Source: a virus
Virus record (IMG/VR): IMGVR_UViG_3300037346_000424
Coordinates: 1 to 30,254 of that record
Length of the DNA stretch: 30,254 nt
Direction: 5' to 3' (one strand)
Shown one piece after another: positions 7,807 through 30,254 of the stretch. The first letter of the stretch is position 1; every line of letters begins with the position of its first letter. Made by a program: the position numbers and the translations under genes. The notes under the pieces were generated by a model. That model ran no database searches. It was not told the DNA's origin and saw only the letters and a program-made list of their open reading frames with translations.

Positions 7807-8817
7807 TTATTCGTAAGCGTTAGTGGACGCTGGTCCGGGAATACTTAGAGCTATGCCTTGAGCATTGCTAAGGGTCGCGCTAGAAAGGCTATCCAGCTCG
7901 GCAAGGCTGCTCGGGTTGGAAATGTCGATAGAGGTGATGCTGTCGGAAACAGAGGACACCACGTAAGCAACTTGATTGGCAACGTCCACAGCGATGTTAT
8001 CAACACTGTCAAGGTTTACACTGGTGAAGCTATCCAGCTCGGCAAGGCTGCTCGGGTTGGAGATGTCGATAGAGGTGATGCTGTCGGCAGCAATGGACAC
8101 CACGTAAGCAACTTGATTGGTGAGGTCTAGAGCGTTGCCGCGGGCACCGTCAAGGTTTACACTGGTGAAGCTGTCCAGCTCAACGAGGTTGCTTGGGTTG
8201 GAAATGTCGATAGAGGTGATGCTTTCGGAAAAAAGAGAGTTTACGTAAGCGACTTGGTTGGCAACGTCGAGAGAGACGCTGCGGGGGCCATTTAAGCTTA
8301 CACTGGTGAAGCTGTCCAGCTCAACGAGGTTGCTTGGGTTGGAAATGTCGATAGAGATGATGCCGTCGGCAGTAAAAGCGTCTACGTAAGCGACTTGGTT
8401 GGTGAGGTCTAGAGCGATCCGCTGGGCCCCATTAAGGTTCACACTGGTGATACTGTCCAGCTCAGCGAGGTTGTTCGGGTCCGAGATGTCGATAGCGGTG
8501 ACACTATCGGCAGCAAAAGAGGCCACGTAAGCAACTTGATTGGCAACGTCCACAGCGAGGTTAGTAGCACCGTTAAGGCTCGCACTGGTGAAGCTGTCCA
8601 GCTCAACGAGGTTGAACGGGTTGGAGATGTCGATAGAGGTGATGCTGTCGGCAGCAGAGGACACCACGTAAGCAACTTGATTGGTGAGGTCTAGAACTAC
8701 GCCTTGAGCAGCATTAAGGTTCACACTGGTGAAGCTGTCCAGCTCAACGAGGTTGCTCGGGTTGGAAATGTCGATAGAGATGATGCTGTCGTTAGCCTGA
8801 GATGTCACATAAGCGAC
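7807..8817 (-). repeat. Seven in-frame 141-bp repeats encoding propeller blades
   Basis: Six consecutive 141-base units (7972-8817) and a seventh divergent at its end (7807-7971). They share long near-identical stretches, such as the segment encoding SIDISNPSNLVELDSFTS. The exact 47-codon period fits internal duplication, and similarity between units leaves room for recombination to change blade number. Confidence 0.9.
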
Positions 8818-10438: not shown

Positions 10439-10893
10439 TAACTTCCATCCGACTCATAGGGCGCAGTAGGCCAGACCACGGCAAAAGGGAATCCGATCTG
10501 CTGCGGAAGGTTTCTGAGGTTTTCCCTGTAGCTCAGCCATTCGTCTGGAACAGGAAGGCCTTTCTCCAAACAACGGACAACCCTAATATCGGTTTCCCAG
10601 AGGACGCTATTGCGTGTTTGGCGAACAGAGTTCGCTGCGGCTCCAAGCTCCTTGTTCACAACTTCATAGCCCAAAAACCACTTTCCGCCCTCCTCGAAAA
10701 AATCGGCGGCATCGTTGCAGATTTGGGTCAGGGGGTCGTAACTCGGCCGAGACGTTCTGGTATACGGGTAAACCCCGTAGTCAGACAAGAGTGTGTCCGG
10801 TGGATTTTTTGGGAACCCGACCAATGGGTTATCGGCCCTCAGCTGAGACAGGGAATACGGACGGGCCTTCCCATCATGGATGTGTAGGTACAT
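10438..10893 (-). CDS. Tail-assembly-chaperone-like protein, copy 2
   Basis: A 151-residue protein; ATG at 10893 has an AAGGGAG Shine-Dalgarno. It has the same length and frame as the 7341-7796 product: an N-terminal PYSLSQLRADNPLVGFPK with GVYPY, and a C-terminal segment ending W..YRENLR, FPF and WP. The middle differs (an insert containing NDAADFFEEGGKWFLGYEVV). I read the two as paralogues with separate partner fibres: this one precedes the solenoid protein, the other precedes the 621-residue tail protein. A role in folding or attaching the adjacent fibre is inferred from family and position. Confidence 0.75.
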   Translation of the reverse strand: MYLHIHDGKARPYSLSQLRADNPLVGFPKNPPDTLLSDYGVYPYTRTSRPSYDPLTQICNDAADFFEEGGKWFLGYEVVNKELGAAANSVRQTRNSVLWETDIRVVRCLEKGLPVPDEWLSYRENLRNLPQQIGFPFAVVWPTAPYESDGS

Positions 10894-23294: not shown

Positions 23295-23484
23295 TTTTGA
23301 GCTCCTGTTTATCTAGCAGGCCCGAGAGTTCCTGAGCTACGAAATTGAGGGCGTTTAATTCGCCCATGCAGAGCTGATACTGCTCCATTGTTCGGATACC
23401 ATTGTTCTCAAGGGTATCCAAAACCATCGTGCGGCGCTCCTTGATGGAGCGCTGCACAAATTGTACTATGTCTAGTTCTTCCAT
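23287..23484 (-). CDS. Small conserved phage protein, possibly from a leaderless message
   Basis: A 65-residue acidic helical protein from ATG 23484: EELDIVQFVQRSIKERRTMV, DTLENNGIRTMEQYQLCMGE, then NALNFVAQELSGLLDKQEL. Similar small proteins lie between portal and co-chaperonin or scaffold genes in marine phages. No Shine-Dalgarno is present. Instead a perfect TATAAT ends only five bases before the ATG, so transcription might start at the start codon itself. It overlaps the co-chaperonin gene. The function is unknown; an assembly cofactor would fit the site. Confidence 0.75.
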   Translation of the reverse strand: MEELDIVQFVQRSIKERRTMVLDTLENNGIRTMEQYQLCMGELNALNFVAQELSGLLDKQELKND

Positions 23485-23489
23485 GCGAT

Positions 23490-23511
23490 ATTATATAGCA
23501 TATCGTATATG
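23490..23511 (-). promoter_or_regulatory. Perfect -10 element and AT-rich inverted repeat before the 23484 start
   Basis: The minus strand has TATAAT at 23495-23490, immediately before the start codon region, in an AT-rich island inside GC-rich DNA. Just upstream is an inverted repeat, CATAT-ACG-ATATG (23511-23499), which could be an operator. No good -35 is visible at 16-18 bases. The spacing would place +1 at or next to the A of the ATG. Confidence 0.4.
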
Positions 23512-23539
23512 GCGTGACCAGCCATTTTAGGCTGCGCTT

Positions 23540-23749
23540 TTAGTTCGACGAAAACTTCCCGCCGCGCAAAGCCGCGCCCATACCGCGCTTTTGACCCGTC
23601 GTGGACGAACCTTTCGCGGTGTTGGGCGTCGCAATATCCTTGACATCGCTGTACGGGATGCTGCCCTGACCCGCGATTACGGCCTTTTTAGAGGCTGCGG
23701 CGGTCTTGCCAGGGGCTGCGCCCATGTAATTCACTTTTCGGTCCATCAC
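23540..23749 (-). CDS. Small basic conserved phage protein
   Basis: A 69-residue protein; ATG at 23749 overlaps the portal stop (ATGA), so translation is probably coupled to the portal. The pattern DRKVNYMGAAPGKTAAASKK, VIAGQGSIPYSDVKDIATPN and a C-terminal GQKRGMGAALRGGKFSSN is mostly Gly, Ala, Lys and Ser. It recurs next to the portal in marine phages. No function is known to me. Confidence 0.75.
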   Translation of the reverse strand: MMDRKVNYMGAAPGKTAAASKKAVIAGQGSIPYSDVKDIATPNTAKGSSTTGQKRGMGAALRGGKFSSN

Positions 23750-28093: not shown

Positions 28094-29548
28094 CTACCCA
28101 TAATACGCGCGTATCCTCGGGCTCTCGTCGTCGTCCACGGACCAATCATCCGTCGGCAAACTGACAAAATTGCCCTGCCGATACCGCATCATCGCCTGCG
28201 TGGTGCTGTCAACAAAATCGTCGTGTTCCCCGTTCGGGAACGCCGCGCACTCCTCGATCACATCCAAAGCCCACTGCTCGTCAGGCGCCCACACCATCCC
28301 CGCCTCAAACAAAGGCGCAATGCTGTGCGCCCGACTGACCTTGTCGTTCCCACGGCTCGGCGTGAAGTTGACAACAGGAATCCCCATGTTGCGCAGCTCC
28401 TGCGTCAAAGGCGTGCCCGTAGCCTTGGCCTCGATGATCACCGTCTCCGGTTCCCAAAACTGGAAGTTCTCCCACGCCACACGCTTCAACTCCGGAAAAT
28501 CCCAGCGCCCCTTCTTGGCGTCCAACAGCAACAAACCAGGCGGCCCGCCCTCGTCCATCCGAAAGACCCCCCACGTCGTGATCGCAGAATAGTCCGCAGT
28601 CTGCCGCTTCGAGAACGCCGTGTCGTAGCTCTGGATGACATACTCCAAAGGCGGTATCTTGTCCTTCTCCCACACACGCCACCACTCGCGCTTCAAAATC
28701 GAAGTCTCGTCACCCGTCGGGTTCTGCTGATACTGCGCGTTCCACTTGCTCGGCGGGATCGAAGCCTTGACCCGCTCCAAATCGCCAATCGGCCAATACT
28801 CCGGCCAACACGATTTCCCGCTCGGCATGATCGCAGGAAGCTCGACCACCTCCCACTGATCGGCCAACGGATCACGGGCCTGCGCCCGAATCAACTGACC
28901 CGTCAAGTCTTTCTCTGACCAGCGGGTCATAACCACAACAATCGCGCCCCCAGGCTGCAAACGCTGTCGCGGACCACCCGTGTACCAATCCCAAGCATCG
29001 TCAAACCCCGTGTTCGACATCAGCGTCTGCTCCGAATGAGGGTCGTCGATAATAATCAAATCCCCGCCGCGGCCCGCCAAGTTCGATCCAACACCAACAG
29101 CGTAATACATTCCCCCGCGGTCCGTGTCCCACCGACCAGACGCTTTCGAATCCGCCGCAAGCTTTACAGAAAACACATCCGCGTAATCTTCTCGCTCAAT
29201 TAAGTTCTTCGTCTTTCGACCAAAGCTGACCGCCAATTCCGTCGTGTGCGTCGCCTGAATTATTTTCTTATTCGGAAACTTTCCCATAAACCACGCCGGA
29301 AACAAGAAACTCGCAAACTCCGATTTCGTATGACGCGGCGGCATATTGATAATCAGACGCTTTAATTCGCCATTCGCCACCCTCTCCAATTTGTCAGCAA
29401 TAATCCGATGGTGGTTGCCCGCGATAAATTCAGGCCAGACATTCTTCACAAATGTCAGAAAATCATCTTGGCACCGGTCCTTCTTCTCCAACTGCGCCAG
29501 ACGAAGCTGCAGCTTCAGAAGCTTGTCGTTTGCGTTGTCTGTGTCCAT
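28094..29548 (-). CDS. terL: Terminase large subunit
   Basis: 484 residues from ATG 29548, chosen because AAGGGG lies about ten bases upstream; the longer frame reaches a GTG inside an operator-like palindrome. The ATPase domain has a deviant Walker A at residues 69-77 (MPPRHTKSE), Walker B with LIIIDDP (Asp168, Asp169) and a VVVMTRW motif III (~204-210). The nuclease domain has Asp309 (SYDTAFS), Glu373 (IIEAKATG) and Asp443/Asp444 (HDDFVDSTTQA). This two-domain motor pumps DNA through the portal and cuts it. No small subunit is in the window. It is the first gene of the structural operon. Confidence 0.93.
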   Translation of the reverse strand: MDTDNANDKLLKLQLRLAQLEKKDRCQDDFLTFVKNVWPEFIAGNHHRIIADKLERVANGELKRLIINMPPRHTKSEFASFLFPAWFMGKFPNKKIIQATHTTELAVSFGRKTKNLIEREDYADVFSVKLAADSKASGRWDTDRGGMYYAVGVGSNLAGRGGDLIIIDDPHSEQTLMSNTGFDDAWDWYTGGPRQRLQPGGAIVVVMTRWSEKDLTGQLIRAQARDPLADQWEVVELPAIMPSGKSCWPEYWPIGDLERVKASIPPSKWNAQYQQNPTGDETSILKREWWRVWEKDKIPPLEYVIQSYDTAFSKRQTADYSAITTWGVFRMDEGGPPGLLLLDAKKGRWDFPELKRVAWENFQFWEPETVIIEAKATGTPLTQELRNMGIPVVNFTPSRGNDKVSRAHSIAPLFEAGMVWAPDEQWALDVIEECAAFPNGEHDDFVDSTTQAMMRYRQGNFVSLPTDDWSVDDDESPRIRAYYG

Positions 29549-29587
29549 GGACGTCAACCCCTTTTTACCGCTGCGCAACCTAGCACA

Positions 29588-29603
29588 TTTTGTGATCACA
29601 AAA
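29588..29603. promoter_or_regulatory. Operator-like palindrome 1
   Basis: A perfect 16-base palindrome, TTTTGTGATCACAAAA. Its core TTTGTGATCACAAA occurs three times in 235 bases. It lies 40 bases ahead of the terminase start and just downstream of a -10-like element, so a protein bound here could block transcription of the structural operon. Confidence 0.7.
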
Positions 29604-29621
29604 CAGCCTCTGTTTTATGAG

Positions 29622-29627
29622 ATAATA
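29622..29627 (-). promoter_or_regulatory. -10-like element ahead of terminase
   Basis: TATTAT (5/6 match) on the minus strand lies about 75 bases before the terminase start codon, in an AT-rich patch. No convincing -35 is found, so a phage-modified polymerase or an activator might be needed. The predicted start would fall just upstream of palindrome 1. Confidence 0.3.
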
Positions 29628-29685
29628 TGCGATGCCTAAACTACACCCCCCATACGCCCAAAAACAAGCCCCTCCATAGGTTTCA

Positions 29686-29699
29686 AAAATATATATTTT
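29686..29699. other. AT-rich 14-base palindrome
   Basis: AAAATATATATTTT is a perfect palindrome in otherwise GC-rich DNA, next to a GGGGG run. It could be a melting site or a protein-binding site; sequence alone does not decide. Confidence 0.4.
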
Positions 29700-29724
29700 A
29701 GGGGGCCCAGGGGACCCAAACAGC

Positions 29725-29740
29725 ATTTGTGATCACAAAT
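29725..29740. promoter_or_regulatory. Operator-like palindrome 2
   Basis: A perfect 16-base palindrome, ATTTGTGATCACAAAT, with the same 14-base core as palindromes 1 and 3. It is 137 bases from copy 1 and 84 bases from copy 3. Confidence 0.7.
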
Positions 29741-29808
29741 CCGCGGATCGCGGGCCAAAAACCGCCCCTCACCCAGATTTTGCACGAAAAAATATCAGAA
29801 GGGCACGG

Positions 29809-29822
29809 TTTGTGATCACAAA
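29809..29822. promoter_or_regulatory. Operator-like palindrome 3
   Basis: The perfect 14-base palindrome TTTGTGATCACAAA. It lies 25 bases from the parS-type site. Bases outside the core differ among the three copies, so the 14-base core is the conserved unit. Confidence 0.7.
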
Positions 29823-29847
29823 ACCAATCGTCGCGGACCGCGGTTAA

Positions 29848-29863
29848 TGTTTCACGTGAAACA
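29848..29863. promoter_or_regulatory. parS-type ParB-binding site
   Basis: TGTTTCACGTGAAACA is a perfect 16-base palindrome and equals the canonical chromosomal parS sequence bound by ParB (Spo0J) in many bacteria, including Bacillus and Caulobacter. At parS, ParB loads CTP-dependently as a clamp and spreads to segregate DNA with ParA. It lies in gene-free DNA beside palindrome 3 and the 22-bp repeats. Whether a phage or the host ParB uses it is unknown; no parA or parB gene is in the window. Confidence 0.8.
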
Positions 29864-30072
29864 ATTCTCAAACGAAAAAAAATTAGGATTGTTAGCGACG
29901 AACATGGTCCATGCGCTCGTTGCCACCGGCCCCGCCCCCGGTCCGCGGAAAACGTAGCGAAAACAGCGGCTTACGGACCGTTTAGCCTCAATTGCCATAG
30001 GGGCCCCTAGACACGCGGACCGCGGGTCGCGGCCGGCGGATCGGGGCGCGCGGGCGGGGGATCGCGGCCACC

Positions 30073-30254
30073 GGATCGGCCACCAGGCAGGGCAGGATCG
30101 GACATCGGGCAGGGCAGGATCGGCCACCGGGCAGGGCAGGATCGGACATCGGGCAGGGCAGGATCGGACATCGGGCAGGGCAGGATCGGACATCGGGCAG
30201 GGCAGGATCGGACATCGGGCAGGGCAGGATCGGACATCGGGCAGGGCAGGATCG
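30073..30254. repeat. 22-bp tandem repeats running off the right edge
   Basis: Eight full 22-base units and the first six bases of a ninth, starting at 30073, 30095, 30117, 30139, 30161, 30183, 30205, 30227 and 30249. Each contains GGATCGG and ends GGGCAGGGCA or a close variant. Units 1 and 3 have CCACC where the others have ACATC. Units 4-8 are identical. No spacers are present. The array may continue beyond the window and may have stopped the assembly. Confidence 0.95.

Follow-up and report, generated by a model that had tools for sequence, protein, structure and literature searches.

A viral fragment from IMG/VR carries, upstream of its large terminase gene, an exact copy of the chromosomal partition site parS, which most likely serves to load host ParB onto the DNA of a phage that appears to have no par genes of its own. 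The fragment, here called the window, is the whole stretch of 30,254 bases that was analysed; it is an incomplete genome, cut at the contig end. A partition site is normally read as the mark of a plasmid, a phage-plasmid or a chromosome. In this fragment the site is exact, selected and of the ParB type, with a ParB-like pattern of tolerated change, and neither ParA nor ParB is detectable in the relatives of the phage. The site occupies the following setting.

28094-29548, minus strand: terL, large terminase subunit, 484 aa (PHROG 38, E 2.5e-107), the nearest gene downstream of the parS region
29549-30254, unstranded: non-coding region containing the palindromes, the tandem repeats and parS, truncated where the contig ends and continuing in a near-identical contig (L003)
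29589-29602, unstranded: palindrome TTTGTGATCACAAA, copy 1 (sequence scan)
29726-29739, unstranded: palindrome TTTGTGATCACAAA, copy 2 (sequence scan)
29809-29822, unstranded: palindrome TTTGTGATCACAAA, copy 3 (sequence scan)
29848-29863, unstranded: parS TGTTTCACGTGAAACA (position scan, consensus of PMC7022226 and conservation in relatives)
29890-29906, minus strand: second conserved element CATGTTCGTCGCTAACA, with the family pattern CATGTTYNTNNCNAAYA, upstream of parS
30073-30254, unstranded: tandem repeat with a 22-nt unit, about 8 copies, reaching the contig end

The 16-bp sequence TGTTTCACGTGAAACA is a perfect palindrome that matches the chromosomal ParB consensus TGTTNCACGTGAAACA exactly (PMC7022226), as the first-pass annotation had claimed, and lies upstream of terL, with 299 bases separating it from the start codon. 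It is the sole match in the window even when three mismatches are allowed (0.18 expected at three mismatches in shuffled sequences). Base composition predicts about 3e-6 exact matches per window, in line with the earlier view that a perfect match is unlikely to arise by chance in 30 kb.

The palindromes and repeats described beside the site are likewise real. Three identical 14-bp TTTGTGATCACAAA palindromes sit between parS and terL and are present only in the closest relatives (L002-L004); they are probable operators of a clade-specific regulator. The CATGTTYNTNNCNAAYA element is found upstream of terL at 53 of 69 loci in the window's TerL family (W), including some without parS, and at none in two further TerL families (B and C), and is a candidate packaging (cos/pac) or control element. 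The near-identical phage contig has an exact parS and goes on for roughly another 830 bases through GC-rich repeats. Long GC-rich tandem repeats lie upstream of the control region (1-1070 in that contig, 30015-30254 in the window), and both contigs end in or near them. Elsewhere in the window, a 141-bp tandem repeat of about 6 copies occupies 7888-8791 on the minus strand within an ORF of 353 aa that belongs to the structural module, and the ORF list leaves a second ORF-free gap near 23295-23745 besides the stretch upstream of terL.

The window TerL is 62% identical to that of Pelagibacter phage HTVC027P, and we took the best 80 of 599 relatives from a TerL scan as the W family. Of these best 80, 52 have a consensus or consensus-like parS no more than 500 bases upstream of terL, as do nine of the ten members of the window's own sub-clade with visible sequence, where it is exact or carries one change. 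Within the sub-clade the offset from terL shifts between -92 and -315, and the flanking sequence does not align. The best matches to parS across W are nearly all-or-none in mismatch count, and the alignment holds about 0.3 bit per column in the flanks versus 1.95 in parS, a contrast that is partly built in because the site pattern served as the alignment anchor. Many W relatives have paired sites, TGTTCCACGTGGAACA and TGTTTCACGTGAAACA, 24 bases apart and in variable order; the two differ by a symmetric change at position 5. Loss or mutation of the 16-mer in related phages had been named as grounds for rejecting its function, and relatives with the same TerL keep it.

Three W relatives that lack the upstream site (L057, L061 and L068) carry an exact parS about 7 kb downstream, one long W genome (G001) has three exact copies, and in HTVC027P the site lies between gp31 and gp32. 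On the TerL tree, upstream parS requires at least nine state changes and downstream parS at least four. The site is missing from some relatives (L006, the L013-L017 clade and L040/L064-L066) and is not found at one mismatch in HTVC023P, 023Pt_psg01 and DSL-LC04, an observation that counts against the use of host ParB. Judged by its conservation, parS in the window is a genuine, selectively kept site.

Families B and C extend this pattern to other terminases. Family B TerL shares about 29% identity with the window TerL, and 36 of 78 loci have exact parS in up to five copies each; arrays of two to five exact sites lie mostly at -140 to -2300 from terL, at positions that vary among relatives. In family C, whose TerL is about 54% identical to that of the window, the motif-bearing phages have parS mostly at +1824 to +1918 or at about -100 from terL. 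The first-pass annotation had placed the site ahead of the packaging operon; a position upstream of terL is indeed common, but it is not required, since other families carry the site elsewhere.

The family C sites also separate selection on DNA from selection on protein. Nearly all exact copies (33 of 34) overlap ORFs that are 100 aa or longer, and the sites are translated as VSRET or VPRET. Third codon positions are 97-100% fixed inside parS, with 24-68% minority letters in the flanks on either side. The sole frequent change within the site is T>C at position 5, which alters the amino acid and corresponds to the N of the ParB consensus TGTTNCACGTGAAACA (PMC7022226). Silent positions are thus fixed while an amino-acid-changing position varies, which rejects protein-coding constraint as the cause of the conservation and indicates that selection acts on the DNA. 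The family C rows were picked at no more than two mismatches; mismatch counts are bimodal, at 0-2 or 6-8 with nothing between, so this choice does not create the third-position result. In these relatives, selection appears to hold the DNA site and to tolerate change at the degenerate position only, as in a chromosomal-type parS.

Control palindromes behave quite differently from parS. The three TerL families together contain 185 exact parS in 2.42 Mb, versus zero copies of 839 control palindromes built from the parS half-site letters in the same sequence. Among IMG/VR viral contigs we find at least 120 parS matches, versus one for a control palindrome of the same length. In a collection of 50,697 phage records, parS-containing queries match 306-367, versus nine for a control palindrome in the same flanks, which has no match at 95% identity or above. 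These controls, together with the expectation for the window, rule out a chance match. Among the phage names attached to the motif, the ten most frequent do not include Escherichia and Klebsiella, hosts not known to have a chromosomal ParABS, despite hundreds of such records in the collection.

The motif also occurs in phages of other lineages in which ParB_N does not exceed the cut-off. The 19.3-kb genome of phi29 (L391) has four TGTTTCACGTGGAACA sites, at 10445, 15903, 17243 and 18760, which fit the Bacillus subtilis ParB consensus. Further parS-bearing phages of this kind are B103, Chedec 11, Ruegeria phages V10 and RpAliso (near genome ends), Gordonia phage Hail2Pitt, Lactobacillus phage LpeD, Bacillus phage vB_BcoS-136, Butyrivibrio phage Arian, Arthrobacter phage VroomVroom and Pseudomonas phage phiPsa300, whose site lies in the terminal repeat with one mismatch; phi29, B103, RpAliso, LpeD, vB_BcoS-136 and Hail2Pitt have two to four sites each. 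Microbacterium phage Paschalis bears the motif and does have ParB_N. The inovirus PQ006135.1 (L392) has six exact parS in only 5,910 bases (635, 662, 1414, 2857, 4096 and 5628), several directly after gene ends; it has no annotated ParB, and six of its nine annotated proteins, scanned against Pfam, gave no ParB match. With phi29 as the yardstick for use of host ParB, relatives of the window likewise combine a consensus parS with no detected ParB. Several sites in cultured phages lie near genome ends or in terminal repeats (V10 at 841, L384; RpAliso at 2020, L380; phiPsa300 at 385, L388; Hail2Pitt at 2581 and 3002, L385), perhaps in the DNA that enters the cell first.

Partition and integration genes were sought with domain profiles whose positive controls were detected in known genomes. 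No ParB_N (PF02195) exceeds the cut-off in 37 long contigs of the three TerL families or in HTVC027P, HTVC023P, 023Pt_psg01 and DSL-LC04, and no HTH_ParB (PF17762) does so in 27 long contigs. ParA (PF13614) is found in none of 31 long contigs and phages; near-full-length genomes of 51-62 kb are included among the relatives searched for ParB_N and ParA. One close relative (G010) has a ParB_N score of 20 bits in a 928-aa frame, under the cut-off. Tyrosine integrase (PF00589) is also below the cut-off in 27 long contigs, and a temperate lifestyle through such an enzyme was rejected. For the phage of the window, whose record is incomplete, the lack of ParA and ParB is read from these relatives, and a divergent ParB could escape the profiles or lie outside the 30-kb window.

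Host assignment was attempted through GTDB, where the look-up returned no more than three MAG contigs, two from Verrucomicrobia and one from Maricaulis. All three are probably stray phage contigs, and we rejected an assignment on this basis. In a Maricaulis MAG, two exact parS copies lie 1.5 and 3.5 kb away from parB, which illustrates that the phage site is the same as the chromosomal one; Maricaulis is not put forward as the host.

In bacteria, parS is where ParB nucleates before it closes into a CTP clamp and spreads (PMC12704722). The protein recruits ParA and SMC, loads SMC at parS in several species and can repress promoters adjacent to parS (PMC7022226). Since long relatives lack detectable ParA, ParB and integrase and the exact site is conserved, the most likely role of the window parS is to load host ParB. 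Of the readings put forward in the first-pass annotation, this recruitment of host ParB best accounts for a conserved parS beside no detected par genes, and we regard it as highly probable. After infection, host ParB would bind the phage parS, close as a CTP-dependent clamp and spread over neighbouring phage DNA, thereby linking the phage genome to the ParA and SMC segregation machinery of the host. By analogy with phi29 and Spo0J in sporulating Bacillus, the most likely benefit would be retention: phage genomes not yet packaged would stay at the nucleoid and be inherited by daughter cells during delayed lysis. Binding, spreading and a benefit from partition or tethering are what we infer for the phage DNA, and we lean modestly towards recruitment and such a benefit occurring together. 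Partition may be of little use to a lytic phage, and the position of many W sites just downstream of promoter-like sequence would also fit transcriptional control.

That alternative, in which host ParB mainly tunes late transcription or packaging, would have a clamp or roadblock between promoter and terL delay the expression of terL and the genes downstream. Many W relatives have parS shortly downstream of a TATAAT-like sequence and 52-150 bases before terL, which keeps regulation alive as a reading, and PMC5521831 also reports repression of promoters near parS by chromosomal ParB. A promoter scan of the window, however, finds no sigma-70-type promoter beside parS. The shifting positions among relatives weaken a role confined to the terL promoter, and the sites within a gene after terL in family C, 7 kb downstream in part of W, up to 2.3 kb away in family B and between other genes in HTVC027P argue against it; we consider transcriptional tuning as the main role rather unlikely. 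Use of the site across the genome is favoured over control of terL because of these shifting positions, the in-gene sites and the inovirus and phi29 cases. Alternatively, many replicated phage genomes could pull host ParB away from the host origin by titration, or divert SMC from it, so that host segregation stalls or phage DNA is compacted for packaging. Arrays of two to five sites near terL in family B, the six sites of the inovirus and the loading of SMC by ParB-parS (PMC7022226) are consistent with such a decoy, as is the destabilization of a helper plasmid by the parS copies of the genomic island SGI1 (PMC10954446). Many genomes have a single site, however, which would titrate poorly before replication, and this explanation is distinctly unlikely.

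The palindrome could also be the operator of a phage-encoded regulator that resembles parS by coincidence, and its location in a control region beside other palindromes, where phage operators are found, suits such a role. We nevertheless rate it as very improbable: the same 16-mer recurs in otherwise unlike phages (phi29-like, Ruegeria, Gordonia, Lactobacillus and inovirus), its tolerated position matches that of ParB, neither HTH_ParB nor ParB_N is found in long relatives, and Escherichia and Klebsiella fall outside the commonest names for the motif. The first-pass annotation had further raised a phage-plasmid with its own ParABS. The window is incomplete, and three of 50 other motif-bearing viral contigs do have ParB_N over the cut-off; yet the long relatives, among them the near-full-length genomes, yield neither a linked parB gene nor a ParA-type ATPase over the cut-off. 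This reading is not supported, and it is extremely improbable that the rest of the genome encodes a ParABS.

Recruitment of host ParB by a bare parS has consequences beyond this phage. Several families of phages of aquatic bacteria keep parS without partition genes under clear selection at the DNA level, and no integrase was found. This suggests that phages routinely draw on chromosome segregation as something the host provides, and it points to a mechanism by which carrier states and delayed lysis could arise. We tentatively propose, as a case that falls a little short of even, that a bare host-type parS is a widespread and repeatedly evolved trait of phages lacking ParABS, giving non-integrating phages plasmid-like inheritance or nucleoid tethering through host segregation. 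Its range would span marine and freshwater tailed phages, phi29-like phages, large Ruegeria, Lactobacillus and Bacillus phages and inoviruses. Our literature search found no report of parS in these phages, and papers on HTVC023P-type phages make no mention of parS or ParB; such borrowing had been hinted at for one Bacillus phage, phi29, and a bare parS is seen here in many unrelated phages.

According to PMC9437464, Spo0J, the ParB of B. subtilis, is reported to trap the phi29 chromosome inside the spore (Meijer et al. 2005). As appears to hold for the phage of the window, phi29 is virulent and has no ParB of its own, and host ParB keeps its genome with the host chromosome; it belongs to an unrelated lineage, whereas the host of the window phage is not known to sporulate and the window site lies near terL. 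SGI1 is a proven non-viral case of stolen parS, in which two parS mimics hijack the parABS of an IncC plasmid (PMC10954446). It too is a mobile element that exploits the ParB of another replicon for partition through bare parS copies, but its sites and the ParB that it uses are of the plasmid type rather than chromosomal, and it expels its helper. The chromosomal ParABS system (PMC7022226) shares the identical motif and tolerated position with the window site, which differs in residing on a phage, with no linked parA or parB and away from oriC. Sites for CtrA in alphaproteobacterial phages, associated with lytic deferment (PMC9437464), similarly place targets of a host cell-cycle protein on phage DNA; CtrA is a transcription factor, whereas ParB is a segregation clamp.
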